Position numbers and translations under genes: made by a program. A DNA stretch of 64,000 nucleotides, taken from NCBI GenBank assembly GCA_015179125.1, contig WHVA01000312.1:1-64000 (forward strand). The letters run 5' to 3'. The notes under the pieces are model-generated. The model made no database searches. It had not been told where the DNA came from and worked only from the letters and a program-made list of their open reading frames with translations. This document shows positions 1,716 through 59,100 of the stretch, piece by piece. The stretch comes from Gautieria morchelliformis (taxonomy: Eukaryota > Basidiomycota > Agaricomycetes > Gomphales > Gomphaceae). Position 1 is the stretch's first letter. Each line of letters starts with the position of its first letter.

Positions 1716-3445
1716 CATTGGTTGAGTATATACTATCCACTTTCCGCGATGATTCAGTCTTTTTTGAAACTGCGTCTTTGGCCACACTTCGCTTTTGATG
1801 CATGCAGTGCGTTTCACCTGCATTGGCATCATCATCCCTCATGCATACCTCATCTCCTTTTCGGTTAATTTTACGATGCATTCTCACTGTTTACGGTGAG
1901 GAATTTTGACGGCCTTGAGTGCACTCCCATTCCCTGCACGTCCTTTTCCTGTTACCGTCCCGTGGGAACTGTCTTGTATGGGTGTGGATCCCATTGTTCA
2001 GATCTCCAATGTTGTACACGCATCTTCACTTACGATCCCGGTGAAAAATTAGCACCCCGCAAAGGAGTCGGGGACTGGCGCCATTGCGCCGCTACGGATA
2101 CGGTAACTGTAAGGGAAACGCTGTGTATAGAAAGCCAGACTGGACAGCTCCATTTTTTGCTGTCACACCACCGTTCTGGACATGATTTATCAGCAGATGA
2201 GTCGGCATGGGCCTTAGACCCCAGACAGTAATACATCATAGACAGTAATACTGTTGTAAGTAGCGCAGTATCTAGAGACAAAGGAGCTCAGTGAATGGAC
2301 AATTCACTGAGCATGTATTGCTACTATACCTAGAGACGAAGGAGCTACAGTCGTAGTGTAAGCTATCGTACGTCTCAGTATACAGGAATGGCATGTACCT
2401 CAGCGAATGGACAATTCACTGAGGTACAACTAGCTATGGTGCGAATAATATACTGCCACGGTCGAGTATGACTGTGGCTACCTAACTACCAGTCCGTGTG
2501 TCGGACACGACCCTGCGTTCTCCGCTTACCCCCACTCATCCTCTAATCTCAATAAATACATCATATATATAATTCTATATTGCAGGCACGCGCTGCGCAT
2601 CATCACCCTCGACGTGTTGTTGACACGTCAAACAGTGATGCCATGCTGACTGCTATGCTCATCCCTGTCGCACGCATGACCCGTAAACACAGCGGAATTG
2701 TTTAGTACTTCCTACACCGAGTTCTTGTTCATTATGGGAAGCACAACACGGAAGCGCCTAACTGTCTCCTTTTAAGAGACCCTATGCTCCTGTAAGCAGT
2801 GCTGATTCTCGTATTAAGCCACGTCCTCCCATGCGCTCTATATTACTGAACATTGTTGTGCTGTATGCCATTGTCCTGACCGGGTCGGTGGGTCCCACTG
2901 TAGACCAGATGCTTCAATTCCTGGAACAATATAATAAGGTGCATCTTTGTCAACAATAACAGTGTTAACATTCATTCACTAGGTTTGGGATACCCTCGGG
3001 GTCATTGAGGCAAGGAGCATCAATTACAGTGCTCTAGACCCAAATGTTGCAGGTTGGGTTGATGGTATGCATGACAGTTTATTTAAATATATCCATTCCT
3101 GATTTAAACATATTCCAGTGACAAATATGTTTATTGGTGGGTAGATATGCACGTACAATCCTGTGCATCATTCAAACTTCAGTGTTAGGCTCCAAGAAAA
3201 ACACAGGGGTATTATCCAATCATTTGACTATTTACCAACCAGAAGACTCGGCAGTATCTCTTTAGTACCTTTGCCAGCTTGGGAACTTCTAACATGACAC
3301 AGCTTGTTGGTGTGCCTTTGAATCAAACAGTTAGGTGAGGATTCTGTAACACATCATGGGATATCAATGAGTCTCAGCAGGAATTTAATAATCAAGGGCA
3401 ATTCTTTGTTCCTGTCACTTATCTCAAACTTCAGCAGGGGCACAC
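1716..3445. other. No gene seen; contains two related hairpins (2286-2427)
   Basis: I see no convincing coding sequence. The only structure is a pair of hairpins that share the loop GGACA: 2286-2312 (perfect 11-bp stem around GCTCAGTGAAT) and 2395-2427 (14-bp stem with one mismatch). Similar words, TAGAGACAAAGGAGCT and TAGAGACGAAGGAGCT, lie next to them. Confidence 0.5.
2286..2427. repeat. Paired hairpins with a common GGACA loop
   Basis: The arms are GCTCAGTGAAT/ATTCACTGAGC in the first hairpin and GTACCTCAGCGAAT/ATTCACTGAGGTAC in the second, each closing on GGACA. They may be remnants of a small foldback element. The core CTCAGTGAAT also occurs near 55760, beside a copia LTR. Confidence 0.6.
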
Positions 3446-3980
3446 ATGTCACCTGCTGCGCATCACAAAATCCAATGCATGTTCCACCTCCAGCACAATG
3501 TGTTCCACATTTTTGGAACTGTCTTCGGCCATGGGCACTCTGCTTATGTCTGCCAGTGCGAAGAACTCTGGAAGGGGCTCAACCTTCTCCTCAATGGTCA
3601 TGAGCCAGATGTCAAAAGCTTGAGGGTGCTCACAGGCATAGTGGCGTGGCTGCCGACATTGGAAGCAGGTGATGGTTGGTTGCCTTTTCCCTGCATCCGG
3701 TCAACATCCATTGGGGCAGGACCATTCTTCGGAGGAGGGGAGCTAGGGTTCCGAGCAGGGGCCAATGGGGTGACTGTCAGAAATGTCTTCCATGTTAGAA
3801 TCAATATAGCTCCAGATTTTGGCAGATGTGGAGTGAGTGGGATGGGTGGAACTGCATGTTGTGCTCCAGTTCATCTCCACAAAAGCCTCATTCACTTCCC
3901 TCTTTTGGGACACCTTCCACATGGCTTGGTACCACATTACTGTGTAGTACGTACTACTTGTTCCTTGCCTTAGAAGCTTA
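3446..3980 (-). pseudogene. CpG-decayed second copy of Ty3 gag
   Basis: The reverse strand can be aligned with the gag at 1-1022, covering the C-terminal linker (MDVDRMQGKGN) and a damaged zinc knuckle that reads roughly CFQCRQPRHYACEHPQ. The last knuckle Cys is lost. Downstream it reaches MTIEEKVEPLPEFFALADI and a likely protease-proximal segment. Most differences from the other copy are CG to TG or CA, and the frame is broken. Tentatively a dead element fragment inactivated by methylation or RIP-like mutation. Confidence 0.7.
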
Positions 3981-4646
3981 ATCATAGATCTGTGATTCAT
4001 ACAAAGCCTATCATGTTAAAAAGGGCTCTGGAATGTCGTAAAATAATATGTACTTGACTCATATCCCTCCCACAAAGCTCGGGACAGAAAATTCAGTTTA
4101 AACATACCAGTTTCGCATCGCTTCCAGCACGACTCCGTTCGCTGACGGCAACGGGCACAAATCACTTGAGGCCACAGAAAGAGACCATATATCCCTGAAT
4201 GTGAGAGCTACATTGGACAAACTATGATAAGTTAGAGTGTTATGAGGTTATGCCTTCTTCGCAAGCTTCAGCTAATCTTCGGCCCTCAAGCTTGGGGCGA
4301 AACAACTGGTGCCTGCCGTGCCTGACTCTCATTATCAAAGCCGTCACACGGATAGAGGCGGGTGGGAGAGTGGCGAGTGGCGATGGCACGGCGGCTGGGA
4401 ACACGTCTGCGCTTCTGGGCAGTCAATAGGCAGAAGGAAGAGCCCGTCCGAGGCGGACATGTAACCGAGGCCTTGTGAGCCGCCTGTCGCAGGTGGGGAG
4501 ACTGCACCCCATGGAGCGGGAGGGGAATTTGCACTCGGAGAAAGTACCACTCCCACTGTACCTACGGGCTGTGGGTATTATATTCTGCCCACTTGGGGAA
4601 GTTTCGGTTTGTTTCTGTACAGGAGGGTGAGAAACACGCGAAGCTG
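3981..4646. other. No firm gene
   Basis: On the reverse strand a proline/serine-rich open stretch (about 4344-4556) looks protein-like, but it has no recognisable family and no clear splice context. It might be a further 3' exon of the gene at 4647-5091. Nothing else is supported. Confidence 0.3.
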
Positions 4647-12227: not shown

Positions 12228-13475
12228 ATGTCTGCTGAACAGCCGTCATTTGCTTCGACAATTGAGGTTCTACGAGAATATGTCCCCGATTCACTTTTAC
12301 ATCCTGCGGTTGGAGTCGTGTGTGGTTCGGGCCTGAGCACGCTTGCCTCCAGTCTGCGGAACAAAGTTTTGGTTAGCTACGACATTCTTCCAGGTTTCGC
12401 GAAGAGTACTGGTAGGTTCTAACGGCTCTTTTCCAGGTAGAAACCTTGTCTATAGGCCCTGAACGTATGCATCTTATGTTTATTCTATGACAGTGCCTGG
12501 ACATAGGAATGACCTTGCATTCGGTCTGCTGGGACCGGTGGACAATGGGGTGCCAGTGGTGGCCATGCTTGGAAGAGTTCGTACCATCTCAGTTATTGCG
12601 AGGGATACTCTAATGCCCCCCCTACACTGCAGTTACATCCTTACGAGGGACATACGCTGGCAAGTGTTGTGTATCCCATCCGGTTTATGGCCAAACTTGG
12701 CGTGAAAAATATTCTTAGTGAGCGATTTGGTTTTTTTTTCTACTATTTTAGAGGGTAATCGCCTCATTTTTCACTCATCTTTTCCAGTCACCAATGCTGC
12801 TGGATCGCTCAATCCAAAGCTAGCTGTCGGCACCAGTATGTACACCATTGATCCGTCCCTCTGCGAAGAATTAAACACGCTCCTTTCAGTCGTAGTAGTT
12901 CAGGACCATATCGCGCTCCCCAATCTTACTGGTTTCCACCCGCTCCTGGGCCCACAAACTGATGTTTCCCTGCCGCGCTTTCTCCCGCTATCTGATGCTT
13001 ACTCCCGTAGGCTTCGCAAACTCGTCTTCATGGCTGCTCATAGTCTTAATCTACCCGAAAATGCGCTGGCTGAGGGTACTTATGCATGGGTGTCAGGGCC
13101 AACTTACGAAACACCTGCAGAGGGGCGTTTCTTGCGTGCAGCTGGCGCAGATGTCGTCGGGATGAGTACAATACCTGAGGTCCTTGCTGCAAGGGAGATG
13201 GGAATTGAAGTCTCAGTCCTCAGCTTAGTCACCAATGCTGTTGTCATCCCCGAAGGATACAGTAGCATAAGGGAGGAGGTTGAAGCGGAGGTCAGTCCAA
13301 CGGCTGCCCCTCAGCTATATACTGATCAATCAATTGTCCTTGGCAGCTCGCCGGTCGGGCGGTGAAAGACGTCCCCGATGCCATCGTAGCACACGAGGAA
13401 GTTTTGGAAGTAGGCCGTGAAAAAGCAGATGTAATGAGACTTCTGGTGGAGAAAGTTGTGGAACTGATTCAATAA
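12228..13475 (+). CDS. PNP1: Purine nucleoside phosphorylase
   Basis: Cytosolic purine salvage enzyme: inosine or guanosine + phosphate to base + ribose-1-phosphate. Exons: 12228-12411, 12494-12576, 12633-12717, 12788-12835, 12890-13290 and 13347-13475. All introns are GT-AG and 54-82 bp, and the spliced product is 309 aa, as usual for the trimeric family. Seen in order: GVVCGSGLSTLA (phosphate-binding Ser), VPGHRNDLAFG, HPYEGH (phosphate/ribose His), KNILITNAAGSLN, VSGPTYETPAEGRFL (base-site Tyr and Glu), GADVVGMSTIPEVLAARE (Met-Ser ribose site), LVTNAV (base-site Asn) and AHEEVLEVG (ribose His). The ATG follows a CT-rich tract (TCTTTCTCTCTCTC), typical of fungal promoters. GAR transformylase starts 151 bp downstream on the same strand. 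Confidence 0.95.
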
Positions 13476-13626: not shown

Positions 13627-14383
13627 ATGTCTCGCCAACGACGATTAGTTGTCCTCATATCAGGCTCAGGTTAGCACATTTCGTTTCCAGTGTTGCTTAA
13701 TCGACCTTTTCAACGTCCTCTTATTAGGAACCAACCTTCAAGCCTTGATCGATGCCTGCGCATCTAATGCACTTCCACGCACCGAAATATCCTTAGTTTT
13801 CTCCAATCGCAAAGCCGCATACGGACTAACTCGTGCAACGCAGGCGTCCCCCGCAATTCCTACGGCGTATCTATCTCTTCAATCGTATTTGAAAACTCAT
13901 GGCAGCGAAGCTACCAGGGACGATTACGATGAAGTCGTCGCTTGGCGAGTACGGCAGGAAAAACCAGACCTAGTTGTTCTGGCTGGCTGGATGCATATAC
14001 TTGGAGAAAAGTTTCTGGATATTATGGACGGAAAGAAAGGAGATGCATCAGGACAAGAGATTGCTACCCGCGCAATCCCCGTCATCAACCTTCATCCCGC
14101 ACTTCCGGGTGCATTTGATGGCGCCAATGCACTCCAACGAGCCTACGATGCCTTCCAACGTGGTGAAATTACTAAAACAGGGGTCATGGTACACCGAGTC
14201 GTCCAAGAAGTCGATCGAGGTGAGCCAGTCGTCGTGCGGCAGATTGAGTATCGCGAAGGCGAGGCACAAGAGTCGTTTGAGAAGAGGTTGCATGAGACAG
14301 AGTGGCAAGTCATCGTAGAGGCCACAAGAAAGGTGCTAGAAGAAGTAGCACCCTCAGCCGACACAGATGGATATTGCTCGTGA
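13627..14383 (+). CDS. ADE8: Phosphoribosylglycinamide formyltransferase (GAR transformylase)
   Basis: Third step of de novo purine synthesis: transfers a formyl group from 10-formyl-THF to GAR. Exons are 13627-13669 and 13728-14383. The 58-bp intron splits the phosphate-binding loop GSG/TNLQAL, and the product is 232 aa, normal for the stand-alone fungal enzyme. The N-terminus reads MSRQRRLVVLISGSGTNLQA. Further motifs are VFSNRKAAYGL, LVVLAGWMHILGEKFL, VINLHPALPG (catalytic Asn and His) and GVMVHRVVQEVDRGEPVV (catalytic Asp). No lesions. The start is the first ATG, eight bases after TCACTTTT, and leaves only 151 bp from the end of PNP. Common regulation with PNP is an inference. Confidence 0.95.
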
Positions 14384-15374: not shown

Positions 15375-18300
15375 ATGATTAAAATTATATCAATCCTGTT
15401 CTTGGTCGCTTTGCTGGGTTGTATCCATGCAGAAGTTATAACGGACAAAGTCTCTTCCCTGTCAACTCGACGACGGCCGAAGAGACATGAATATCTACCT
15501 GCGGAGTACCGCTTTACCTCGCCAGGCCAGGACGTGAACGTGCTGCGTTCTGACCCCGACGTCAGCGACGCTGAGCTTTTGGACGTGGTCGTTCTAGCAT
15601 CCGTAGACGGGAAACTCCATGGTCTCAATAGGACAACAGGGCGCACATTGTGGTCCATGGCGGATGACCCTGGCTCATTACATCCTTCACCATCAACTTT
15701 TGATTCGCTTGTCCGCACGCAGCACTCTTCTTACGAGTCAGACCAGGAATTCTTCATTATCGAACCGCAGTCGGGAGATATCTACGTTCTTCCCCCAATG
15801 GCATCACCATCTGACTCCCTCCAGCGTTTACCGTTCTCAATGCAACAGCTTGTCGAGATGTCACCATTTAGCTTCCCTGGAGACGAGAATCGTCTGTTCG
15901 TGGGAAGAAGGAGACTAGTATGATGATCATCAAGCTTGACACCGGGAAAGTGAAGGGAACTGTAAACGCAGACAAGGAATGTTTTTGGGACGATCAACAG
16001 GAGTCTACGGAGGAGATCGACTTGGACGAGCTGGATGGAACGAAGCCTCCTAAACATAAACTTCAATCCCCTGAAATTTATATTGGCCGCACAGGTGCGT
16101 GTGTCTGGATTTTAAATACTGGTTGATCTTGACGTGCCAAAGACTATCATGTTCGTGTCCATTCAAAGCACCAAGGCGTGGTTCAAAATTTGTATTACTC
16201 CTCCTACGGTCCGAACAACATTGACAGGGACAGACAATCTAAATGGAAACGTACCCCAGATGACCTTTATATCCAGTCGCTGCCGAACGGTCACATACTC
16301 GCCTTTCAAACTGATGGTTCTGACACATCGCAACGTACTGATTACGACGATATGCCCATCTGGGGCTGGGAATTTAAACAACCCATGTGAGTGTTGTCAA
16401 TATTTGGTAGTTTTACAGGACAGTTCAATTTGCATCCTCGCAGTGTGGCCATCTTTGACGTTCTTACCATCCCTTCTCGGCCTAACCCTCTCGCCCTACT
16501 GCAACCACGTCCCCACCTTGAACATCTAATGCCTCGGCGTTCGCCTACCTCTCACCAGTTGGCACATAGTCTCCCCGAAGCCATTTACGTTGGTCTTGTT
16601 GGAGAATCCCTCTACGCCATGGGCCACACCAACTTCCCACTGGTGGTCTTCGATCAAGAGCCTCCTCACATGACAGTTCAGGAAGGAGATGTGTCGACAT
16701 CGTCCATGTGTGATGGGCTACGGTGCTTAGCTGGGTCACGAAAGTCCGACGCGTCTTCGCAATGGTATCCACCGCCCTTGCTCGATGCCGTTCCCAACCT
16801 GCCTGGTTTGCTGGAGGAACGAGTCTCACTTGACCATAGATTAGGCCCCGGCAGCTCCAGCTCAGACGGCGACTCTAATGATTCGCGAGCGGGTGCTGAT
16901 GATACCGAGAAGGAACGGCAAACCCATGGAGAAGCTCGGCTAGGGAAATGGGGAATAATCGGTTTTGCAGCAACGGTGCTTGTCGCTCTGACAAAATTAT
17001 TTATTGGAAGTCGACAACCACCAGAATCCATTCAGCCTGTCGCACCATCTAAGGAAATTGGAACCGTAGATGACGGGGAGAAACCCGTATCGCAGTCTGA
17101 CCCAACCCCTCTTCCGTTACCGCCCCCTTCCCACCCGTCTGTTATCGAGATAGCACCCTCGCCGGAGCCAGATCCAATCCCACAAAGTCCCAAACCAATC
17201 CCACCTAGTCCCAAACCTGACCAGGAGCCGAATCTCAAATCTCAGCTACTTCCAGTGGAAGCTCCTGGGGAGCCCGAGGATGGAGATGAGAGTGAAAAGG
17301 AGGGTCCATCCGACATGCCACGAAAGAAAGGCCGGCGGCGAAAGCGGGGGAAAAAGAAGAAGACCGAGGCTGTAGAACCAGGAGCGGAAGCAGATGAAGA
17401 CGAATACGATTTTGTAGCGAAGGACGTCCCGGACGAGACACCTGTTGTTCCCCCGAGTCCCGCTTTGCCCACGCCTGTACCGTCGCCACCGTCTTCGCTG
17501 TTAGTGTCTGATACCGTTTTAGGTGCGTGATGCCTCTGGGGTATAAAAGGCACTAATAACCCTTGCGAATAGGCCTCGGTTCTCACGGCACCGTAGTGTA
17601 CGAAGGGTCTCTGCAGGGTCGTGCTGTCGCTGTGAAGCGGCTTCTACAAGACTTTGTGACCATCGCTGCACGTGAGGTCGAACTCCTTCAAGAATCTGAC
17701 GATCACCCAAACGTCATACGATACTTTTACAAAGAGTCCAAGGATGGTTTCTTGTACATTGCTCTCGAGCTATGTCCGGCGTCCCTTGCAGATGTCATCG
17801 AACGACCCGATGCGTTCTCTGCCATTTCCAGCGTCTTTGACCCCAAGCGTGCCCTCGCACAAGTTGCGGCAGGTTTACGGCATTTGCATATGCTCAAGAT
17901 TGTCCACCGAGACATCAAGCCACAAAATATCCTTGTTTCGCGGCCGAAAAATGGGCTCCATCGGATGCTTATATCTGACTTTGGGCTATGTAAGAAGCTG
18001 GAGGTGGATCAAACCAGCTTTTTACCGACTGTGCACGGTGTGATGGCCGCCGGCAGCTTTGGATGGCGTGCGCCTGAGATCTTGCGAGGCGACGTGAAGC
18101 TTGACGAACAACCCATGGATCCAGATGATATCTCATCGCGAGGAAGCACAGTTAGCGCCCACTCATCGTCTTCCAAGGGTGGGAAGCCTACGCGACTGAC
18201 TAAGTCCGTGGATGTTTTCGCGCTGGGTTGCTTGTTCTATTATACATTGACGAGCGGCATGCATCCATTTGGAGATCGTTTCGAGCGGGAGGTAAACATT

Positions 18301-18977
18301 CTCAAGGCCCGGATTAACCTGGACGCGTTGGAGCAGTTTGGAGAAGAAGGCTCAGAGGCGGCTCATCTCATTTCGACAATGTTGGATCAGGACGCGAAAG
18401 CGCGGTGAGAATGAGTGTTGTCACCTTTGACTTCTCGCATTGATAATGCATGTTATAGGCCGGATACAACCACCTGTTTAATTCACCCGTTCTTCTGGAC
18501 GCCTGCGCGCCGATTGAACTTCCTGCAGGATGCTTCAGATCGGTTCGAAATCATGTGTCGAGATCCACGGGAGACGCCACTTATCACGCTAGAGACGGGA
18601 GCATATGATGTAGTGGGGAACGATTGGCATAATCGGCTCGACAAAGTCTTTGTGGAGAACTTGGGGAAGTTTAGGAAGTACGACGGGCGCTCTGTACAAG
18701 ATCTTCTCAGGGCGTTACGAAATAAAGTACGTAGTGAAGTGGCATGGCGAGTGCGCTCTCGTCGTTATTTACATAACTCGTACGATTCCAGAAACACCAC
18801 TACCAGGATCTGCCTGACCATGTCAAGCGGCACCTAGGACCGTTACCTGAAGGATTTCTGGCCTATTTTACCCGACGATTTCCTGGTCTATTTATCCATG
18901 TGCATGGCGTAATTTGGCGTTGTGGCCTTGCCCATGAATCAATGTTTCGATCATATTTCGAACTTGCTGATCCCTGA
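15375..18977 (+). CDS. IRE1: IRE1 unfolded-protein-response kinase/endoribonuclease, with a 1-bp frameshift
   Basis: ER transmembrane stress sensor whose cytosolic RNase splices the HAC1-type mRNA. Exons: 15375-16094, 16143-16386, 16444-17522, 17573-18404, 18459-18726 and 18792-18977, with introns of 48-65 bp. Domains: signal peptide (MIKIISILFLVALLGCIHA); luminal beta-sheet domain (GKLHGLNRTTGRTLWSM, IIEPQSGDIYVLP, WGWEFKQP); membrane helix GIIGFAATVLVALTKLFIG near 16960; Pro/Lys-rich linker; kinase (VLGLGSHGTVVYEG, VAVKRLL, HRDIKPQNIL, ISDFGLCKKL); KEN RNase (KFRKYDGRSVQDLLRALRNK then KHHYQDLP, which retains the Tyr, Arg, Asn and His expected for catalysis). In exon 1 the G run at 15902-15904 is one base short of the expected GTG GGG AAG AAG, so the frame shifts before ETSMMIIKLDTGKV. 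A base-call error or a real null allele are both possible. Confidence 0.93.
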
Positions 18978-24437: not shown

Positions 24438-24660
24438 TGTGGAACGAAGGAGTAAATATGATCTGATATTCTACATTGATCTCAAGTAGATCGTTCCTTT
24501 ATATACAAATTATAATGTCCATTATATTACCAATCTCTTCGAGCTGCTGTGCCGATGCGATGCCGGCGCACCAGCAACCCGGGGTCGAGAGCGATCTCGA
24601 ACCTCCGGCTAAATGCGTGCCGGCTCTGCCTCGGCAGTGTCATCGTTCCGATTACTAACA
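24438..24660 (-). repeat. Copia 3' LTR
   Basis: 223 bp, TGTGGAACG...TACTAACA on the plus strand. The last 17 sense codons and the stop of the polyprotein lie inside it. A purine tract (GAGGGGGAG, reverse strand, 24661-24669) directly precedes it in element sense and should be the polypurine tract. Confidence 0.93.
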
Positions 24661-27600
24661 CTCCCCCTCAGCGAGAAATCCCTTCGGTAAAATCCCAATT
24701 TCCCTAATAGATACCTATGTTGGTGCATGTCTAATCCCTTTGTAAATATGTCCGCTACGTTCTCCTTCGTCGGTACGTATGTAAGTGATGCCTCGTGAGA
24801 GGCCACTTTCTCACGGATAAAATGATATGCGACATTGATGTGTTTGGTACGCGCATGATACGTTGCGTCATGCGATAGTGTAATGGCGCCTAGATTGTCT
24901 GATCGAAGTGACGTGGGCTGGGTTTGATCGATTCCAAGTTCCTCGATGAAACGTCTCAGCCAGATTAATTGCTTGGCGCCCTCGGTAAGTGCCATGTATT
25001 CGGCCTCCGTGGTAGATAGCGCGATCGTTCGCTGCTTCTTCGAGCTCCATGCAATGGTTCCTCCTCCTAGCATAGCTACATAGCCACTAATAGATAGTGC
25101 GTCGTTTCTATTAGCATAATCCGAGTCGACAAATATTTCGAGGTCGAGACCAGCGTCTCGTCGGAATGTTATGCCGTCGTCACGTGACCCTTTGAGGTAC
25201 CTGAGCGCGTGTTTGATCGCCGTCCAGTGCTCGGGTCCATAAGTAGTAGTGAATTGGCTCAAGTGTTGTACGGTAAAAGCCAAATCAGGTCGCGTGCTGA
25301 GTGCTGCATACATGAGTGATCCGATCGCTTTGGCATAGGGTACTTCGGCAGTTGGACCTGTTGAGTCCATGGGTGTCGTGAGTTTGATCATTTTATGCAG
25401 GGGTGTAGATACCGAATGAGCCGTTGTCATGTTGAATCGATCGAGTATGATGTCGATGTAATGTCCTTGAGACATGATTAGCGTTCCCTCATCCCTATTC
25501 CTCTCAACTCTAATTCCCAAGATTTTCTTCATTTCTCCTAAATCTGTTAAAGGGAATTTCCCATGAAGCTCCCCCTTGAGCTTAATCATCCCTCCTTTGG
25601 AGTCAGCAAATAGTCCAAAGTCGTCCACATATACTGATATGACTTCGATTGAGTCCTTATCTTGTCTGATGTAGATGCATTCATCGGCTGTACTTTGATG
25701 GAAGCCGAGATCGAGTAGTAATTTGCGTAAGCGCTGATGCCAAGCTCGTCCCGATTGTTTGAGTCCGTAGAGCGCTCTGTATATTCTTAGAACGCGTCCA
25801 GATCCATCATCAAATCCGTCGGGCTGGCGCATGTAGATCTCCTCATCTATAGTTGAATTGAGGTAGGCGCCTTTGACATCCATCATTTCGATTTCCCAAT
25901 CGAGTGTGTTTGCGATTGCCAATAGAACACGTAGTGAATCGAATTTGACCACGGGTGAAGTTATCTCGTAGTAGTCCATTCCTGGCCTCTGTGTGAATCC
26001 TTGAGCCACGACCCTTGCTTTAGCCTTATCAAATTGTCCATCCGGTTGCGTTTTGACGGCGTATACCCATCGGCAACCGATAGCTATTCGTCCGGGTGGT
26101 AGTTCTGTTAATTCCCATGTTCTTAACGTTTTGTGTTGTTCCATCTCAATTTCCATCGCTTTCTCCCAGATCGGCGCATCATCACGTGATACCGCCGTTC
26201 TGTAATTCTCAGGTTCAGTGACGATTTCTCTCGTTATGTAAACCTGCTCGGTGCGTCCTGAATTATTCAGTTTCCGGTAATCCGGCCTTTGAGTGATACG
26301 CGCGCTCCGTCGGATCTCTGGAGCTGGCGCTTGTTCAGGTGGATCAGGAACGGGTGTCGTGTGGGGTGATGACGTCTGTGGGGTAGATGTGATCGGGTCC
26401 GGCACATGCTCGCGCGGTGAGTGCTCCCCCTCGAGCGGTGCCGTGTCATCATCGTCGTTGTCTGGGATAGGGTAGAGTCGGTTGTCATTTTCGTCGAATG
26501 TGATATTTCTCGAAATTTGAACATGTTTTGAGGCTTTATTGTAATACCTCCATGCTTTTGCATGTTCTGCTACTCCGACGAAGATGTGTTCTTCTGCCTT
26601 TGGATCAAGTTTAGCTCGTCGTTGATCCGGCACCATAACCCAACAATTTGTCCCGAATTCCTCTAGACGTGCTATGTTCGGCTTCTTGCCGAATAGTGCC
26701 TGGAACGGCGTTGCGTCATCTCCAAGCGCTCGCGTGGGTGATCGGTTTTTGATGTAACACGCGTAAGCCACGGCCTCGGGCCAGAGTATTTTAGGCAGGT
26801 TCTTGGCAAACATCATTGCCCGTGCGTGCTCGAGTAAGGTCCGGTTGAGTCGTTCGGCGATTCCATTCTGGGCTGGGGAGTATGGAGCTGTGGTTTCCAT
26901 GATAATGCCATATTTTGCACAAAATTCCTTGAAATTTTTATTGACATATTCCCCTCCATTATCCGAGCGAAACCTCTTCAGTTTCTGACCTGTTTGGGTC
27001 TCGAGGAATGCCTTGTATGTCTCGAAGTGTTTGAGCGCTTCATCTTTGGCGCTCCCAAAATAGATGACCATGTACCTCGATTTGATGTCCGTGAAAGAAT
27101 AAAAGTACTTTTCACGTGATGGTCCCTCAGTCTGGGCAGGCCCCCATACATCGGATACTGTCAGGTCACCGACCTGTTCTACAGTGTCCTCGGCTCTTTT
27201 GGGGAACGGCTCCACATGCCGCTTGCCTTGTATGCATGCCTTGCACTGGCTCGGCTCGTTTGACTCGTCGATCTCGAGTCCAGTAACTAGGTCGTTAGAT
27301 TTCAACAATTTTATGGAGTTTATGTTGACGTGCCCTAGTATCCTGTGCCATTTGTCCCATGACCGTCCCTTTGCCGCTGCGGCAAAGTCCCGTGCCTCGA
27401 CTGATCGAGTGACCCGTGCCTTCATACAGAACAGCCGCCCGCGCTTCTGTCCCTGTGCAAAGGTAACTCCGGTGCGTGATTTGAATTCGACGCCGGTGCC
27501 TGAAAAAGTGGCTGTGTTGCCCTTATCAATCAGACGCCCTACGCTGATAAGGTTGTTCGGCGCATCCGGTGCATGCTTGACGTCACGTAGTTCGATCGTG

Positions 27601-28631
27601 TTTGTCTTGGCGCCGATCTTGAATTCCATGTATATAGTGCCTCGGCCTTGTGTATGTAGTACCGCGCCGGGTGAAATTCCTTCGATTTCCGATGGTTCCT
27701 CGGCATAGCTAGCGAAATCATTTCGGCTTCGAGCTATATGTGTTGTTGCCGCTGAATCGGCTAGCCAGTCGGATGCGGATATAGCACTGTATGCTACCTC
27801 CTTAGATACAAATGCGAAGTCTTTTTCTTCTGCTTGTTTGACTGTTTCTTTGTTCCCTGATTTGAACCATTTCGGTGCTTGGCCTTCCTTGCCGCCACCT
27901 TTCGCCCAACAGTCCTTCACGTAATGACCCTTCTTGCCGCAATTTCGGCACTTTCCCTTTGTTGCTCCTGAGTCATCTTTCCTAGGTCTGTGACGTTGTT
28001 GCGCCTTAAGCGCCGTCTGCCGTGCCGATCCAGCTTTCCGTGCTCGATCCTCATCGAGGACCCGAGCTATTAATATATCAGCTGTTGTCCCGGCTCCACT
28101 GGCGTTTACTGCCGTAATAAACGCCGACCAAGAATCTGGTAATGACGTCAGCAACGTGTTCGAGAACTCGGTGTCACTGATGTAATGTCCCCGCGCATTC
28201 AATTCCTGTTGAATGCCGCGGAGCTTGCGTACGTGCTCCTCCATGTTCGCGCCGTCCTCGGCAAGCGTCCGGAAGAAATCTCTTCGGAGATTTACAATCC
28301 CCACTGCTCCCTTAGATTCGAATATAGCTTGTAGACTAGTCCATACAGCAAATGCAGACATCGTCTGATTGATGTAAACTAGTTGTTCATCGGCAACTCT
28401 GAGGCAAATTTCTTTTCTAGCCTTCTTGTCCTTCCTTCTCCAATCGTCGATCTCCTGCTGTTCGGTCGCAGTGACGTTGTCGGCATCTGCCGGTCTCGGT
28501 TCCGTCTCCCTGCCGATAGCCACGTCCCACAGATCTGAGTCATCGAGTATCCACTCGAGCCGCCGGCGCCACGCCGCGTAGTTATCCCCGTTCAAGGGGT
28601 CGATCTTGTACGTGTTGTTGCTACTCGACAT
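24609..28631 (-). CDS. Copia Gag-Pol polyprotein, 1340 aa
   Basis: Single frame from ATG 28631 (MSSSNNTYKIDPLNGDNYAA) to a stop at 24609. Order: UBN2-type Gag; CCHC knuckle CRNCGKKGHYVKDC; aspartic protease WLADSAATTHI (DSA where DSG is usual); integrase zinc HxxLGH...CKACIQGK; catalytic Asp in DVWGPAQ, RFRSDNGGEYVN, and Glu in NGIAERLNRTL; reverse transcriptase with CRWVYAVK, AQGFTQRPGMDYYE, MDVKGAYLNS and YVDDFGLF; RNase H with VDSDYANRNDALSISG, SSTTEAEYMAL and HARTKHINVAYH, ending KENVADIFTKGL. No frameshift or internal stop. It is likely transposition-competent, apart from the unusual protease residue. Confidence 0.95.
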   Translation of the reverse strand: MSSSNNTYKIDPLNGDNYAAWRRRLEWILDDSDLWDVAIGRETEPRPADADNVTATEQQEIDDWRRKDKKARKEICLRVADEQLVYINQTMSAFAVWTSLQAIFESKGAVGIVNLRRDFFRTLAEDGANMEEHVRKLRGIQQELNARGHYISDTEFSNTLLTSLPDSWSAFITAVNASGAGTTADILIARVLDEDRARKAGSARQTALKAQQRHRPRKDDSGATKGKCRNCGKKGHYVKDCWAKGGGKEGQAPKWFKSGNKETVKQAEEKDFAFVSKEVAYSAISASDWLADSAATTHIARSRNDFASYAEEPSEIEGISPGAVLHTQGRGTIYMEFKIGAKTNTIELRDVKHAPDAPNNLISVGRLIDKGNTATFSGTGVEFKSRTGVTFAQGQKRGRLFCMKARVTRSVEARDFAAAAKGRSWDKWHRILGHVNINSIKLLKSNDLVTGLEIDESNEPSQCKACIQGKRHVEPFPKRAEDTVEQVGDLTVSDVWGPAQTEGPSREKYFYSFTDIKSRYMVIYFGSAKDEALKHFETYKAFLETQTGQKLKRFRSDNGGEYVNKNFKEFCAKYGIIMETTAPYSPAQNGIAERLNRTLLEHARAMMFAKNLPKILWPEAVAYACYIKNRSPTRALGDDATPFQALFGKKPNIARLEEFGTNCWVMVPDQRRAKLDPKAEEHIFVGVAEHAKAWRYYNKASKHVQISRNITFDENDNRLYPIPDNDDDDTAPLEGEHSPREHVPDPITSTPQTSSPHTTPVPDPPEQAPAPEIRRSARITQRPDYRKLNNSGRTEQVYITREIVTEPENYRTAVSRDDAPIWEKAMEIEMEQHKTLRTWELTELPPGRIAIGCRWVYAVKTQPDGQFDKAKARVVAQGFTQRPGMDYYEITSPVVKFDSLRVLLAIANTLDWEIEMMDVKGAYLNSTIDEEIYMRQPDGFDDGSGRVLRIYRALYGLKQSGRAWHQRLRKLLLDLGFHQSTADECIYIRQDKDSIEVISVYVDDFGLFADSKGGMIKLKGELHGKFPLTDLGEMKKILGIRVERNRDEGTLIMSQGHYIDIILDRFNMTTAHSVSTPLHKMIKLTTPMDSTGPTAEVPYAKAIGSLMYAALSTRPDLAFTVQHLSQFTTTYGPEHWTAIKHALRYLKGSRDDGITFRRDAGLDLEIFVDSDYANRNDALSISGYVAMLGGGTIAWSSKKQRTIALSTTEAEYMALTEGAKQLIWLRRFIEELGIDQTQPTSLRSDNLGAITLSHDATYHARTKHINVAYHFIREKVASHEASLTYVPTKENVADIFTKGLDMHQHRYLLGKLGFYRRDFSLRGSVSNRNDDTAEAEPARI

Positions 28632-33264: not shown

Positions 33265-36040
33265 CTATAATAACATTGGTGTGCCATAGTCATCTAGCTG
33301 CATCGATGTGAGTCTCCCATCTACCTTCCTTTGAATCCACTCCGCATATTCTTGGGGCACCCCTCTCATACGCATGTCGTGTACGAGCCGCCTAAGCATG
33401 ATGCTCGGGAAGGCGCCCTTTATGTCTAGGAACAGTATCCCCAATACCTTTCCCCTGCGCCACGCATCCTTAGCTGCTCCCACCATATAATGTATGGCGT
33501 CTGTAGTCATTCGCCCCGGGCGGCACCCGAACTGGTTGTTTGGAAGTAGAAGGTACCTTTCTGCCATCTTGACCATGTCCTCCGCTACGCATGCTGATAG
33601 TACTTTGCCTAGCGTGTCAAGTAGAGCGATTGGTCTATAAGCGCCAGGGATCGAGTAGTCTTTTTTCCCCGGCTTTCTCAATACTTTTGTGATTGAGTCT
33701 TTCCATTCGGCCGGGTACACTTCCAGCTGGAAGGTGGCACGGAACAGGGGTCCTATGTAGGGCAACAGTACGTCAATACATTGCTTTATTACTGCGTTGG
33801 GGATACCGTTGGCGCCAGGCGCTTTGAACGAGTTTAACTTCTCCGCCGCTCGCCGTATCTGTTCATCCGGTATGCCGGTGTACTCAAAAGCTTCTGGCGG
33901 GTATTGCTGTTCGTCCGAGTACGTTGTGGGGTCGTTGGTTGGTTCTGGGAAGAATGTGTGGAATAGCATCTCAGCCTTCTGCTCGTTCGTGTCAGCAACC
34001 CATGCGGTGCCATTGCTGCGCTTGGTTGATAGCGTCGGAATTCTTGCTCGTCCCCTGTCCGAGGGGTCGGCGGATGCGTATTTGTGTGCTGTCCATACCG
34101 TTGACTGGTTGGTTCTCTCCAGGAAATCCTCCCAATGTTCTTGCTTGGACTTCTCTATCGTTTCCGCGTACTTGTTCCTAGCCTTCTTGTATTTTTGGTG
34201 TGCCTCGTGCGTCGGATCGCCTCTGAGTTGATAGGCTCTCCTACCTGCTCGTCTGGCTTCCTTCCTTAGCTGAGCTAGTTCCTTGGACCACCAGCGTTTC
34301 ATGAATGGGGATGGCTTCGTTACCGGGACTAGTTCTTCCGTCGTCTGTGTGATCGCGTCAGTCATCACTTCTAGAATTTGTGAGAAATGCTGCTTGTCTA
34401 TCGGGTTTGGTTCAGTTATGGCCTGTCTTAGTCTTCCTTCGAGTGCTTCATTATACTGTCTCCAGTCTACCTGTCAGTAGTTCCGTCGTTGCACTGTGTT
34501 CGCAGCCTCCACCTTGACTTCGATCGTTGTGTCGATTGGGTAGTGATCGCTTTTCGTAGGTTGGTCTTCCGGTACTGTGTGGCATTGTGTTAGTCTTTCT
34601 ATTAAATCAGGTGTGAGGAAAACGTTGTCTGTGCGCGTATTGTTGCCTGTCGACATGGCTCTTAGCGTTGGGATGCCTTTGGGCAGCGCCATATGCAGTC
34701 CCCACTCCACCGTCGTATCTATTAACAGCTGGGCGTCGTCCAGGTTGCTTCTTGTGAATAGGTGGTTATTCCGTTCTTCGTCCCATTGCGGGTGATGGCG
34801 GTTGAAGTCGCCCAGCCATATCATTCCCACGTCGGTCTGTCTGTCGACTCCCGACATAACCTGTGCTCGCATGAATGTCTTCATTGCTTGTATGCTGTCG
34901 GAGTTGTTGCAGTCGCAATAAATGTTCGCTATTGTGATGTTGCCTACGCCTGTTTTCACTCTGATTGCTGTGACGTCCGGCGTGCCGACATCTATTGCCG
35001 CCCATGCGTTGGTTGCGATCCTTTTGTTGACTAGGATAGTGGCTCTCGTCCTCTTCTGTCTGTCTATGTAGTGTGTCTTTGGGTAGACCGTGTACCAGTT
35101 CGGTGTTGCTCGAGCGTTTCCTAGGAAGTCTATGTACGGTTCTTGTATTGCAATTATGTCGTATTTGTCCGGCGTGCTTGTCGATAGTATGTCGGATGTG
35201 GCCGTCAGTGACTTGTTGGCGTTCTGTTGTCTGATCCGCAATTGTGTTATTCCGTTGTCCACCTCCGTCATTAGGGTTGTGTGGCGTGGTTGTCTCCGTC
35301 GGTTATGTTTGGTCGGTCCGCCCCTTGCTCGTACTCGTCTAGAGTCCTCTGCCTCGTTCCGCCGCTTGTCCACCCCTGATCTCTGTGCCCCAGCGTCGGG
35401 TTTGTATTGGGCCTACTCCTGCTTCTGCTTCCCACTTCTCTTCCTTCTCTGTGGCTCCATCTGCGGCTCTCTTGTGGTCGTTGCTCAGCGCTGCTCCTGA
35501 CGAATGCGGTGTTGACTCGTTGGGTGGTCTCGTCTGTGTCTGTGGTTGGGCCTGTCTGATTGTGTTGCTCCCAGGTCCATGGTTGCTCGTTGGGAAAGTA
35601 TTTGTATGTTCCCTCCGGATCTGCGCTCTCTATCGTCTGACATGCCGCTACAAACTTGGGGCATGTTCAGTCCCACGATGCGTGGCCTTCCTTGTCGCAG
35701 TTCACACACTTGTAGCGGGCCGGGTCGATTTCTTCGCACTCCGCCGTTCTGTGGCCTTTGGCGCATGTTCCGCACGTATCCTCTCCCTTGCAGTCCGCTG
35801 CCATGTGTCTTGTGTTTTGTTTCTGACATTTTAGACAGCGCCTTGGTTCTCTCTTCATCCGCCTGGCCCACGCACGTTTTCCTGAAATGATTAGCCCGTC
35901 CCTTATGCTTAGGTTGGCCGATTCTATAGATGAAAACTTAGCTATTAGGTGTGCCGACCTTTGCCCTTGCATTCTTCTGCTCTCTGGTTTGATCCATCTG
36001 GTCGAGATCAGGGTGCCGCTTGCCAATTTCAAGTCTCTCT
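33265..36040 (-). mobile_element. LINE, truncated at both ends, with two CGA to TGA stops
   Basis: Element strand is minus. ORF1 (about 36035-35485) has a basic Cys/His segment CLKCQKQNTRHMAADC, CGTCAKGHRTAEC, CVNCDKEGHASWD, then TGA at 35667-35669 where D-R-TCPKF is expected. ORF2 starts about 35373 with an APE endonuclease (QQNANKSLTATSD, IIAIQEPYID, IWLGDFNRHHPQWDE, SDHYPID). It is broken by TGA at 34474-34476 (NY*QVDWRQYNEAL), then continues into reverse transcriptase (FKAPGANGIPNAVIKQ, YRPIALLDTLGKVLSACVAE, NQFGCRPGRMTTDAI, LFLDIKGAFPS). The frame ends at 33265 before the catalytic FxDD, so the 3' half is lost. The 5' side abuts Ty3 sequence at about 36040. Confidence 0.85.
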
Positions 36041-46012: not shown

Positions 46013-46532
46013 GTAACTTGACTCAGACGAAAATCAGAGTATTGGAGTGCAAGCGGATGATCCAGAATACATATATATACCATGTCTGACACTCCAGTCT
46101 AAACGTGCTTGCTGGTGAATCGGTAAACTCCCCGGCGGACTTTGTGAAATGACTAGGCGCTTCTGGCACACCGACCTCTTGCGTTCGAATCCCATGCGCT
46201 GGCGTTCATTTTTTATCATCTTTCTTTCACTGCATAAAGCGCCGGCACCTAAAAATCAGATGAAATGGAACTTGAGTTTCAGTACAAAACCAGCTAAAAT
46301 CAGTACTTGAGCACTGATTTTTAGCTCCCGAAGCATTCCCAGCCCCTTTGACCATGAACTGATTTCTCATAGTGAAAATGTCCCACTTTGTACTGTTTTT
46401 TTTAGCTCAAAAAGAACTTAATTCTAGCTTGTTTAGCACTAATAAAAAGTACATTCAGTACTAATTTTTAGGTACATCATTGCCTAGCAAGGATATGTGA
46501 ACCGGTACTGGACTGAAACAGGATGGAAATAG
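46013..46532. other. Spacer with MITE-like CAGTACT/AGTACTG words
   Basis: 46270-46470 is rich in CAGTAC...GTACTGATTTTTAG words, related in the same orientation to 50390-50500. It is probably a decayed small transposon family. A tRNA-like stretch lies at 46105-46210. Confidence 0.4.
46105..46210 (+). ncRNA. Possible tRNA-derived SINE head
   Basis: TGGTGAATCGG resembles a Pol III A box, and GCGTTCGAATCCC, about 70 bp on, is close to a B box (GGTTCGANTCC). A T-run (TTTTTT) follows at 46208. The arms do not fold into a proper tRNA (the T-stem has mismatches and the acceptor ends do not pair). It could be a tRNA pseudogene, a SINE head or chance. Confidence 0.3.
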
Positions 46533-47650
46533 TAGTGTTCTGCGGGCTCGGGCTCAAGCCCGGGCTTGGCCCGAGCCTGGCCCTTAAAAGCCCGAGCCTG
46601 GCCGGGCCCAAGCCTCCAAAAGCCCAAGAGAAGGGCTCGGCTTCGTTTTCAGAAGCCCTGAGCCCGGCCCTTAAGCCCGGGCTTTGGGCGCCAATGTGGA
46701 TCGTCGTTTGAGAAGTCCAAAAAAGTCAACTGTAGTTACAAAAAAAGTTTTGAATGGGTTGAAAAATTTCTCAGCTGTTTTTTCATCCCTCCGCTATCCT
46801 CACACTCTAAATCCCGATGCCTTGCATGGTCATCCCCAGTGAAAAGTGACGTGGGGCGAGTGCGGGTTGCTAGAGGCTTGGAGCCAGGGTGCGTTCAGTC
46901 GTGCTTTGTGACTTGCCTTTTTTTTTTCTGCGTTTTACCCACGTCTCCCAGATCTGTGACATCGCGAAGAAGCGCACTGCACGGTGTTCAAGGGGCGCAA
47001 GCCGGGGATGTACTCACTCAACTTTTCGCGCTACGGGGGCTTATCATCTCTGAGTCGATGGATAAGGTACGTGGGCCTGCTGCCATCTTGCTGTATTGCC
47101 GTGGTGACAGCTGCTGCGTAATGCTGATGCTGACACGCGCAGACAGACAGTGCGCATATGGGATATGGAGATCGGGGGGCATAGGACGACGCTGACGATT
47201 ATCGAGCTGGGGGACGTGAGTGGCTGTTTCTGCTTTTTGCGTGGCGGGGCGCTGATTCTCCGTTTTGCTGCATTTCCGCGTGTGTGCCGGTTCTCTGGTG
47301 CCGCCCCGCAGGCGCAGACTGAGGCAGGCGTGACCTCCGTCGGGATCTCCCTGTATGGGCGGCTTGTCGTGGCAGGCTCGCTCACCACCATCGTGCGCCT
47401 GTGGGACGTGCAGTCGGGACAGCTCATTCCCCAGCCTCATGAGGGACAAGGACAGCGTGCACAGTGTCGCGTTCACGCCCGACGCAACGACGACTGCCCA
47501 CACCTGCAGGCCTGGGCTTGAGCCCTAGCCTGGCCCTAGCCCGGCCCGGCCCTTCTTCCAGGGCCGGGTTTGGAATTCAACGAGCCTGAGCCCCTCCAGG
47601 CCGAGCCCAAGCCTGGGCTTTTGAGCCCAGCCCGGGCCCGCAGAACACTA
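46533..47650. mobile_element. Non-autonomous hAT-like element with captured gene fragment
   Basis: The ends are inverted: TAGTGTTCTGCGGGCTCGGG on the left and its complement (..CCCGGGCCCGCAGAACACTA) on the right, 15 perfect bases then one mismatch. The 8-bp target duplication GGAAATAG is exact (46525-46532 and 47651-47658). The TARNG start, the 8-bp TSD and the clustered GCCCGGGCTT-type subterminal repeats are hAT hallmarks. At 1118 bp it has no transposase. The interior carries intron-containing sequence of a Tup1-like gene. Confidence 0.88.
46952..47500 (+). pseudogene. TUP1: Tup1-like WD40 corepressor fragment inside the hAT-like element
   Basis: Tup1 is a general transcriptional corepressor with a C-terminal WD40 propeller. 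Pieces seen: CDIAKKR, VFKGRKPGMYSLNFSRYGG, LIISESMDK, an intron at 47069-47142 (GTACGT...GCGCAG), TVRIWDMEIGGHRTTLTII, another intron (47216-47311), EAGVTSVGISLYGRLVVAGS, TIVRLWDVQSGQLI, and in a shifted frame KDSVHSVAFTPDATTTAHT. The order and wording fit Tup1 blades. A preceding intron 3' end with a T-rich tract lies at 46920-46951. Frameshifts make it non-functional. The introns mean it was captured as genomic DNA. Confidence 0.6.
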
Positions 47651-48122
47651 GGAAATAGAGAGGTATGCAGCCACAAGGAAAATTCACTCGAGGTGGTGAA
47701 GAAGCAACATCAACGATTAAAACTCAGTCAGAAACGCCGGCCTGAAAAAAGTCAGGGAGTCCGTCACCCGTGCAGGATATGGCAGAGGCCTCAACGACCA
47801 CTACGCCCAGCACATTTGGCATGATGAGTTTGACATCGCCCTTGACAAGGGCTTTCCGCAAGAGTGACAACGCCAAGTATTCAGAGGACAGTGACGAAAT
47901 TGATGATGAGGCAGATGAGGGTCAAGAACAACATACAGGTACACCCGTATTACCTGCACGACATTCACTTTCATCTAGATCACCTGACCAAGTAAATCAT
48001 CGCTCGATGTCAAAGTCACCAGTGCTAGCAACCTCCATATGGGTAAAATTTGAAAGTGAGTGCTGGGAGTCCTAATGTTGAGGTGGACCCAGGAACTGCA
48101 TACCCCACCCACCTTAGCGTCG
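47651..48122 (+). other. Low-complexity open stretch, unrecognised
   Basis: About 47770-48075 is open on the plus strand with a Ser/Thr/acidic composition (MAEASTTTTPSTFGMMS, YSEDSDEIDDEADEGQEQ). It may be a remnant of a hypothetical protein. No family, no splice support. Confidence 0.25.
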
Positions 48123-56188: not shown

Positions 56189-59100
56189 TTAATATATTGC
56201 GATTCTCTCGTTGAGGATCTTCACTCTAGGACTAGGAAGTCCTTTAGTGAGAATATCTGCCAACATTTGTTCGGTTGGCAAATAAACGAGCTTGGCTTCT
56301 TGATTTTTGATTATATCTCGAAGGAAATATAATCTGATGTCGAAATGCTTGGTTCTTGTGTGTTGTTGAGTGCCATACGTGATGGCAATGGCTGATTGAT
56401 TGTCTGAATAAACTTGGATGGGTCTGTTCAGCGGTTGGAAGATTTCAGAGATAAAATGGCGCATCCAGAGAGCCTCTTTGCCCGCATGGGTCAGGGCGAC
56501 GAATTCGGCTTCAGTTGATGAGAGGGCTACTATCGATTGTTTCTGGCAACTCCATGAAACAGTGCCTCCATCAATCTGAAATAAGTATGCCGAATATGAA
56601 CGCCTATGACTCTGTGAACCCCAATCCGCATCTGAATACCCCATCAAGCCGTCTCGATTTCTTCCAAGTGTGAGTTTGTAATGCTTCGTGCCTTTCAAGT
56701 ATTTGAAGACACGTTTAACTGCATTCCAATGTGTGCCACCTGGATTTTCGAGGAATTGTGAGAGCAATGACACCGCAAATGCAATGTCAGGTCGAGTGGC
56801 TACAGCTGCCCACATCAGTGATCCTATGGCTTGCCTGTATGGAATCTTCGACATGGCTTTCTTGCCTCTCTCTGTAGAAGGACATTGGTCTTTAGATAAT
56901 TTAACGGCTGGATCAAGAGGCGTAGCATAAGTCTTCGCATCTTCGAGATTGAATTTCTTGATGATCTTCTCGATGTATGCGGGTTGTGAAATTGCAATGG
57001 TTTTCTTCTGCCAGTCTCTTTCGATTTTGAGGTTCAATAGCCAATGAATCTCGCCTAGATCTTTCATACTGAAGACCTGAGCAAGATCCCGTTTGACTTC
57101 GTCCAGGACTGACTGATTCTCAGCTGTGATGGTAAGGTCGTCCACAGCTGTTGCAATAATCACATGCCCCTTTCCGCCACGTCTATAAAATACAGCCCCA
57201 TCTGTGGCTGACGTAGTGAATCCTAACTTGTGGAATTCACCACTTAGACGTTTGTACCATTCCTTTCCAGATTGTTTGAGGCCATAGAGTGCTTTCTTCA
57301 AAGTAGCACTTCGTCCTGTCTCCGGACTCATATCCATACGGCTGCTTCATGTAAATAGGTTCAGGCAACGTAGCATTGAGGTATGCATAGTCCACGTCCA
57401 TTTGATGAATAGGTCAGTCATTCCTAGCAGCAATGGCGCATATGATCCGTAGGGAGGATAACCGAGCAACAGGTGAGTATGTTCATCATAGTCGACTCCA
57501 AACTTCTGTGTGAAGCCTTGGGCGACCATTCTCGATTTAGGCATTATTGGTTTCCCTTCTGGATTACGCTTCCAAAGGTAGACCCATTTTTACCAACAAT
57601 ATTGGCTCCAGGAGGTGGTTTGGCTCGTTCCCACACTCCCTTGTCGATTAGGGCTCGTACTCTTTGTCCATTGATTTCTTCCACATAGGATTATTCAGAG
57701 CTTCATCTGCATTGCTAGGTTCAATTTGACTCAAATCTGGCGCCTTGTTATTTTTTGACCGTCGGTTGGAAATGCACTGATGGCACACTCATAGCTACTG
57801 ATGCCATCAATCTCGGAGGATAATTCTTGGTCGAATAGATCTTCTTTTTGGTCCTCAACATCCTCATAAGCTAGCGTAGTCATATGTGTGCCAGCTTGCC
57901 TCTGAGTATGAGATCTTGTTACGGGACCTGATGGGGCCGGCTGCACTTGTTGTTGATGGATCCTTTCGCTTCTCCTTATCGGTTCAGCTTCTCTAGGTCT
58001 GTCATCAACTCCCTGAATAGGTTGCAGCTCTTCAAGATATTCCTCTGGTGCACTTTCATCAATTTCTTCGATCTTTGCCTCTTCGCTGACTAAGCGACCA
58101 GGCACAGGCACTGATGCCGGAATGGCCTTCTTCTCCTCTCTAGACGTAGGTAGCTTGGATTCCTCAATAGAAATGATTGGGACCTTTCCCTTCTTCATTT
58201 CTGAATCAAACACAACGTTCCGCTCGACAGAAACTTTGTGCGAGTCAGGCCAATAAATATAATGACCATGGCTCTGCACAGAAATTCCTATCCACCGAGC
58301 TCTCTTGGCACAAGCTGCCAATTTATCTCCCTGAGTGACTTTAACGTAGATTTCAGTTCCCCACGCGTGAATGTCTTTGAGATTCGGTTTCTCATGGTGA
58401 ATCATCTCGTAGGGCGTTTTATCCGGTAGAGCTCTTGTATGCGTCCTATTCCTAAGATAATTGGCATGCTGTATCGCATAGCCCCATAATATCTTAGGAA
58501 GGCCTGATTCTAACAGCATGGCACGAGTTCTCTCAGTGAGAGTTCGGTTCAGACGTTCCGCAACACCATTAGACTCTGGTGTGTCGTGTACCGTCAACTG
58601 ATGCTTCGTGCCTTGTTTGGCTAGATGCTGTTCGAATTCAGAGCTCATATACTCGCCCCCTTGATCAGAAACAAGTGCCTTGATGTGCACATTTCTCTGT
58701 CGAAGCATTAAAGCCTCGTAGAGCTTGTACTTTGAAAATGCTTCTGATTTGTTGGCCATGAGATAGATCACCGATTCTCTTGAGTAGTCATCGATAAAGG
58801 AGACATAATATGACTTCTTATTGATCGTGAGGTGTCTTGCAGGTCCCCAGACATCAGAATAAATTCTGTCACTGAATTTTGATGTTCGGTCTCTGGGTTC
58901 TCGAGGAAGAGGTTTGCGTGCAATCTTGGCCTGAATACACGCATCACAGACAATTCTATCGCCTGTGGAGCTCAGTTCAATGCCCAATATCATGCCATGA
59001 TTTAATAGATGTTGTAGGGACTTCTGTGAGATGTGCCCCATTTTCTGATGAATTTCCATGGCAGACAAACACATATGGGCTTGAGCACTTGGTGACTGGA

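Follow-up and report, generated by a model that had tools for sequence, protein, structure and literature searches.

A hAT transposon of Gautieria morchelliformis carries genomic DNA of a tup1-like gene between its ends

In the genome of Gautieria morchelliformis, the ends of a hAT element flank genomic DNA of a tup1-like gene copy, introns included. The element is located at positions 46533-47650 (1118 bp) of the window, the stretch of 64,000 nucleotides from contig C352 (WHVA01000312.1) that was analyzed. There is high confidence that it is a non-autonomous Pack-type hAT DNA transposon which captured tup1-like genomic DNA and is now without coding function. The assembly searched comprises 122 Mb in 1113 contigs. 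The parts of the element and its target site are as follows.

46525-46532, no strand: target-site duplication, left copy, 8 bp, GGAAATAG
46533-47650, plus strand: non-autonomous Pack-type hAT element (very probable), 1118 bp
46533-46547, plus strand: left terminal inverted repeat, 15 bp, TAGTGTTCTGCGGGC
46533-46834, plus strand: hAT-derived left end, 82.6% identical to bases 1-292 of the full-length hAT, with GC-rich subterminal repeats
46835-46912, plus strand: deletion-scar region, assigned by BLAST to neither the hAT nor the donor
46913-47487, plus strand: captured genomic piece of the tup1-like gene, corresponding to donor bases 1567-2140
46952-47066, plus strand: captured exon, donor IWDIAKK... 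blade, from the donor alignment; frameshifted in the window element
47067-47146, plus strand: captured intron, with GT...AG borders placed as in the donor
47147-47215, plus strand: captured exon, donor TARMWDME... blade, from the donor alignment
47216-47317, plus strand: captured intron, with GT...AG borders placed as in the donor
47318-47487, plus strand: captured exon, GVTSV...WDVQSGQLI blade, with a frameshift near its end
47488-47650, plus strand: hAT-derived right end, 80.4% identical to bases 4181-4326 of the full-length hAT
47636-47650, minus strand: right terminal inverted repeat, 15 bp, perfect complement of TAGTGTTCTGCGGGC
47651-47658, no strand: target-site duplication, right copy, 8 bp, GGAAATAG, identical to the left copy

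The terminal inverted repeats (TIRs) of hAT elements are short and start with C/T-A-G-N-G. The TIR of the window element starts with TAGTG and is perfect over 15 bp, which fits a hAT-type start. An earlier sequence-only reading of this DNA had described the perfect TIRs, the exact 8-bp duplication and the subterminal repeats, and all of these were found; the subterminal repeats are GC-rich and fall into families D1-D4. The span it gave, 46525-47658, holds the element but includes both target-site duplications (TSDs). Its statement that transposase is missing was also correct, as the full-length hAT matches only bases 1-302 and 956-1118 of the window element, together with short matches in the subterminal repeats. 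The translations suggest that the left-hand 302 bp reach a short way into the coding start of the hAT itself. Part of the deletion-scar region is common to the sibling copies L017, L022, and L031.

The full-length hAT is a 4326-bp element at C254:152431-156756 with ends of the same kind and an exact TSD, GTATCATT. Its first 292 bases and its last 146 bases show the identities to the window element listed above. The hAT dimerisation domain, PF05699, was found in it at 156181-156372 (47.8 bits, cut-off 21.4) with one TAG inside. Pfam, run on a single piece of hAT reading frame, returned no domain. PF05699 has at least 152 matches in the genome, among the candidates that were scored, and no match in 14 control genomes. 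In a comparison by eye of the PF05699 matches with the TIR sites, a hAT-type end was located within about 400 bp 3' of five PF05699 matches, on C131, C254, C256, C260, and C519. A full-length hAT with the same ends, a TSD and PF05699 places the window element among the hAT derivatives, and the C254 type is likely its parent type. A hAT with these termini, suggested earlier as something to look for, is thus present in the genome. The element that actually drove the movement was not found: the C254 copy has a stop within the dimerisation domain, so that its present activity is unproven, and its ends are only 80-83% identical.

The captured DNA was traced to contig C419. In a BLAST alignment of 584 columns, introns included, bases 381-952 of the window element are 81.5% identical to locus L020 (minus strand). 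Two tup1-like genes are found there about 6 kb apart on the same strand, one at C419:39000-42700 (L020) and one at C419:46500-49800 (L077 and L078), and the latter has Tup_N (32.6 bits, cut-off 28.7). The element is closer to L020 than to this neighbouring paralog, with 81.5 versus 71.3% by BLAST and 84.4 versus 76.4% in the multiple alignment. Furthermore, sibling elements contain donor bases 358-640, for which BLAST gave no match in the paralog stretch that was read. The closer identity and the presence of these bases in the siblings point to L020 as the donor. The Tup_N-bearing neighbour was rejected as the donor by its lower BLAST identity and by the missing upstream match.

The similarity between donor and paralog starts at donor base 995 and continues, apart from one gap, as far as the sequence was read. 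For donor bases 1-994 the part of the paralog that was read gave no match, and for this reason the donor is apparently a 5'-truncated tup1-like copy close to the Tup_N-bearing tup1. The donor copy has open WD40 exons, its upstream DNA differs from that of the paralog, and the codon positions suggest that both C419 genes are under constraint. An inverted copy of donor bases 296-407 is located upstream of the donor copy at C419:43486-43594 (about 110 bp, 84% alike, about 1.1 kb spacing), which places the left edge of the captured piece in a repeated stretch. Other tup1-like pieces, mostly 69-80% identical to the donor, were seen at C225:142256-142812, C186:49602-49780, C186:119466-119644, and C204:360218-360443. 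They may be genes, pseudogenes or further element copies.

The interior had been read as Tup1 WD40 blades interrupted by GT-AG introns. The donor match bears this out, and the comparison with the donor introns places the splice borders GT...AG at the donor positions; the reading frames, however, are broken. The proposed source, a host tup1 gene, holds in so far as the locus is tup1-like, but it is apparently the 5'-truncated copy and not the Tup_N-bearing gene. The view of the element as a Pack-type hAT that took a host gene as genomic DNA is supported by the intron-spanning donor match and by the donor's upstream DNA in the siblings.

Mapped against the donor and the full-length hAT were 20 elements, 17 of which carry tup1. 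Fifteen of these carriers have a donor match that stops at base 2136-2140; it stops at 1723 in L029, whose right end was not found, and at 2076 in L033. In 10 carriers the hAT resumes with base 4181 or 4182 at 0-3 bases after the donor end. The right hAT match of L021 and L042 begins 11-32 bases further in, and L026, L028, and L030 gave no right-side hAT match in the mapping against the hAT. The same join of tup1 to hAT is present in an alignment of 12 carriers, L030 and L042 included. This common right junction points to one capture. Where copies retain the left junction, the hAT part extends to about base 328, about 25 bp are assigned to neither source, and the donor then starts at about base 358.

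The mapped copies retain different parts of the donor. The window-type subfamily has donor bases 1567-2140, and L017 has 1544-2140 in one undivided stretch. The L022/L025/L031 subfamily has about 360-524, 1543-1666, and 1928 or 1957 to 2140, and the L024/L026/L028 subfamily has 358-640, 1426-1606, and 1994-2140. To judge by this series, the subfamilies lost different internal parts after the capture. The piece was captured as genomic DNA, with upstream DNA of the donor locus included. Donor bases 641-1425 are in none of the mapped copies and were either lost early or never taken. The donor join of about 640 to 1426 was also found at five further places (C131:27618-28327, C180, C194, C212, and C1062). 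Donor bases 1428-1932 are undivided in C212, which suggests that the 640/1426 join is older than the second deletion in that line.

The chimera is amplified by transposition, with many insertions that bear hAT-type 8-bp TSDs. A search for the TIR with at most one mismatch gave 100 genome sites, compared with 2 for the reversed control pattern, which is more than chance would give. The whole window element has at least 76 matching stretches in the genome; this is a minimum, as scores were computed for 40 of the 282 candidates. From the genome matches of the element, 37 loci were fetched, one of which (L020) is the donor. Among the resulting 38 sources, all chosen for similarity to the element, the tup1 piece is present in 27 (the window and 26 fetched loci), and the donor is placed with the 11 not counted as carriers.

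Both ends were identified at a plausible distance in 17 elements. An exact 8-bp TSD is present in 12 of these, a TSD with one mismatch in three (L024, L026, and L041), and none in two (L033 and L045). The flanks of L011, L012, and L013 are 95-99.8% alike, which indicates a single insertion that was duplicated along with its surroundings and leaves 10 independent exact TSDs; nine of these 10 elements are tup1 carriers. The tup1 piece is present in 14 of the 17 and absent from L041, L044, and L045. Some TIR-like pairs were dropped before the 17 were counted: surplus ones from the window, L010, L030, and L041, and the sole pairs of L017, L021, and L037. L021 is a true tup1 carrier; its ends are separated by 4844 bp, it has no TSD, and its inclusion would make the exact TSDs 12 of 18. 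The expectation of other copies with the same ends was therefore confirmed. L041 and L044 (1380 and 1359 bp) are internally deleted hATs that resemble the window element in ends and length; unlike it, their interior is hAT sequence without a tup1 match. Separately, the sister copy L014 contains a nested insertion of 1.7 kb (about 1872-3570) with inverted ends CCCAGTGAGAATCGACCAGGGAT and GCTAGAG at both sides, probably another terminal-inverted-repeat element. L038 contains a tandem repeat at about 440-1500 (GSDSHWVPILTGFRFSL-type unit), which is open in all three forward frames.

The capture may have started with a break inside a hAT copy that was repaired with tup1 DNA as the template. A repair-type capture is proposed because the right junction shares hardly any sequence and the left one has the filler of about 25 bp; we infer this mechanism from the two junctions, which come from seemingly one event. 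In the donor, the captured piece would span about 1.8 kb. As no mapped copy has donor bases 641-1425, this figure is not a length observed in a copy, and a contiguous capture is only a possibility. The transposase of full-length relatives would have moved the chimera in trans. It spread in insertions with 8-bp TSDs, and the subfamilies then lost their different internal parts. CpG sites would have been lost through cytosine methylation of a silenced repeat.

Divergence was measured in seven elements (window, L009, L010, L011, L014, L015, and L017). L013 and L016, near-duplicates of L011 and L015, were left out, as were carriers that miss parts of the stretch. Between the copies, codon positions 1, 2, and 3 and the introns differ by 10.7, 10.4, 11.1, and 10.3%, given as pairwise sums that are not independent. 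Between donor and paralog, the same classes differ by 8.5, 5.1, 19.7, and 30.1%. Within the captured part, the other copies diverge from the window copy by 6-19%. Stops are present in eight of nine exon translations, and the ninth, L017, is stop-free but out of the donor's frame. Where donor and paralog agree, one or more of these seven elements have a transition at 68 of 126 CpG sites versus 22 of 156 other C/G sites (p 1e-12); over all sites, the counts are 82 of 161 versus 37 of 215. From donor to paralog, transitions affect 8 of 151 CpG sites versus 17 of 196 other C/G sites. By these measures, the captured exons are neutral between copies, frameshifted, and losing CpG sites, unlike the donor pair. 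A protein-coding function of the interior was rejected because the codon positions diverge equally and the frames are broken. The CpG decay suggests silencing of the copies. A CpG decay signature in basidiomycete repeats has been reported earlier, clear in Microbotryum and weak in rusts (PMC4352252).

It was also considered that a function maintains the tup1 piece in the element, which would be transcribed and yield a truncated WD40 protein, or antisense or small RNA that tunes the resident tup1 genes. This would be in line with the intron borders, still GT...AG in the window element, with the many homologous copies, and with the apparent hAT coding start in the left end. The equal divergence of codon positions and introns, the stops and the out-of-frame L017, the CpG decay with the silencing it suggests, and the absence of different parts in the subfamilies argue against it, and we regard it as improbable, although a role as RNA may be compatible with the codon-position, stop, CpG, and deletion evidence. 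A related idea, that tens of silenced, methylated tup1-homologous copies act in trans on the resident tup1 genes through small RNA or spread of methylation, is given a very slim chance. If true, a hAT capture would have turned into an epigenetic modifier of a global corepressor.

Two other origins can be given almost no credence. Capture via a spliced transcript or a retrocopy has a published precedent as an inference for a fungal hAT, that of histone H3 in Pseudocercospora fijiensis (PMC6710886). It is contradicted here by intron sequence that aligns to donor introns, two of them in full and another at its end, and by the donor's upstream DNA in the siblings. Alternatively, the element could be an ordinary internally deleted hAT whose similarity to tup1 reflects chance or an independent WD40 sequence, or else a separate pseudogene near hAT ends. 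WD40 genes are indeed abundant in the genome (298 matches), and the deletion derivatives L041 and L044 are free of tup1. However, at the nucleotide level the match covers the introns of one particular locus and extends in the siblings to the DNA upstream of it, and the join of tup1 to hAT recurs in insertions with their own TSDs. A non-autonomous hAT with captured genomic DNA remains the strongly favoured explanation.

Pack-MULEs are non-autonomous TIR elements of plants that carry captured gene pieces. The Pack-TYPE elements of plants (PMC8903248) are of this nature as well; the window element differs in its fungal host. Gene capture by fungal hATs is already known for histone H3, which weakens the earlier suggestion that such a capture in a fungal hAT would stand out. 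In Pyrenophora tritici-repentis, a hAT has a captured histone H3 between its TIRs in 26 copies, with a long and a shorter, non-autonomous form; the long form still encodes transposase, the copies hardly differ from each other, the H3-like frames are mostly intact, and there are ESTs (PMC3538342). The likeness lies in a fungal hAT with a host-type gene captured between TIRs. Compared with that description, the window element is without transposase, its captured part diverges by 6-19%, its frames are broken, and its donor locus is identified. In Pseudocercospora fijiensis and relatives, a hAT of about 9.5 kb is present in hundreds of copies, with TIRs, identical TSDs, RIP at CpA, and a captured histone H3 without introns, from which a transcript or retrocopy was inferred (PMC6710886). 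This system shares with the window family the hAT with TIRs and identical TSDs and the amplified and mutated piece of a housekeeping gene. The window family, in contrast, keeps introns, is about 1.1 kb long, and decays at CpG rather than CpA. The capture with introns thus contrasts with the transcript-like H3 capture inferred in Pseudocercospora. No basidiomycete hAT gene capture was noticed in the literature searched, which is weak evidence of absence. The capture record in this one assembly is unusually complete, with the donor, a full-length relative, both junctions, a deletion series, and neutral decay. It provides a clean case for how DNA transposons acquire host DNA; it adds no new mechanism and, on present evidence, no new gene.

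Other features were observed in the window. No tRNA was found in it by ARAGORN in the bacterial setting. A Copia-type retroelement with an open frame of 1340 aa is located at 24609-28631 (minus strand), part of a second copia-type element (RVT_2) at 56189-57337 (minus strand), and a reverse transcriptase piece (RVT_1) at 33265-34368 (minus strand). Likely host genes encode a PNP_UDP_1 phosphorylase at 12718-13365 (plus strand), a formyltransferase at 13649-14383 (plus strand), and a protein kinase at 17563-18408 (plus strand). Pfam identifies the last as a kinase only; it is reminiscent of Ire1.
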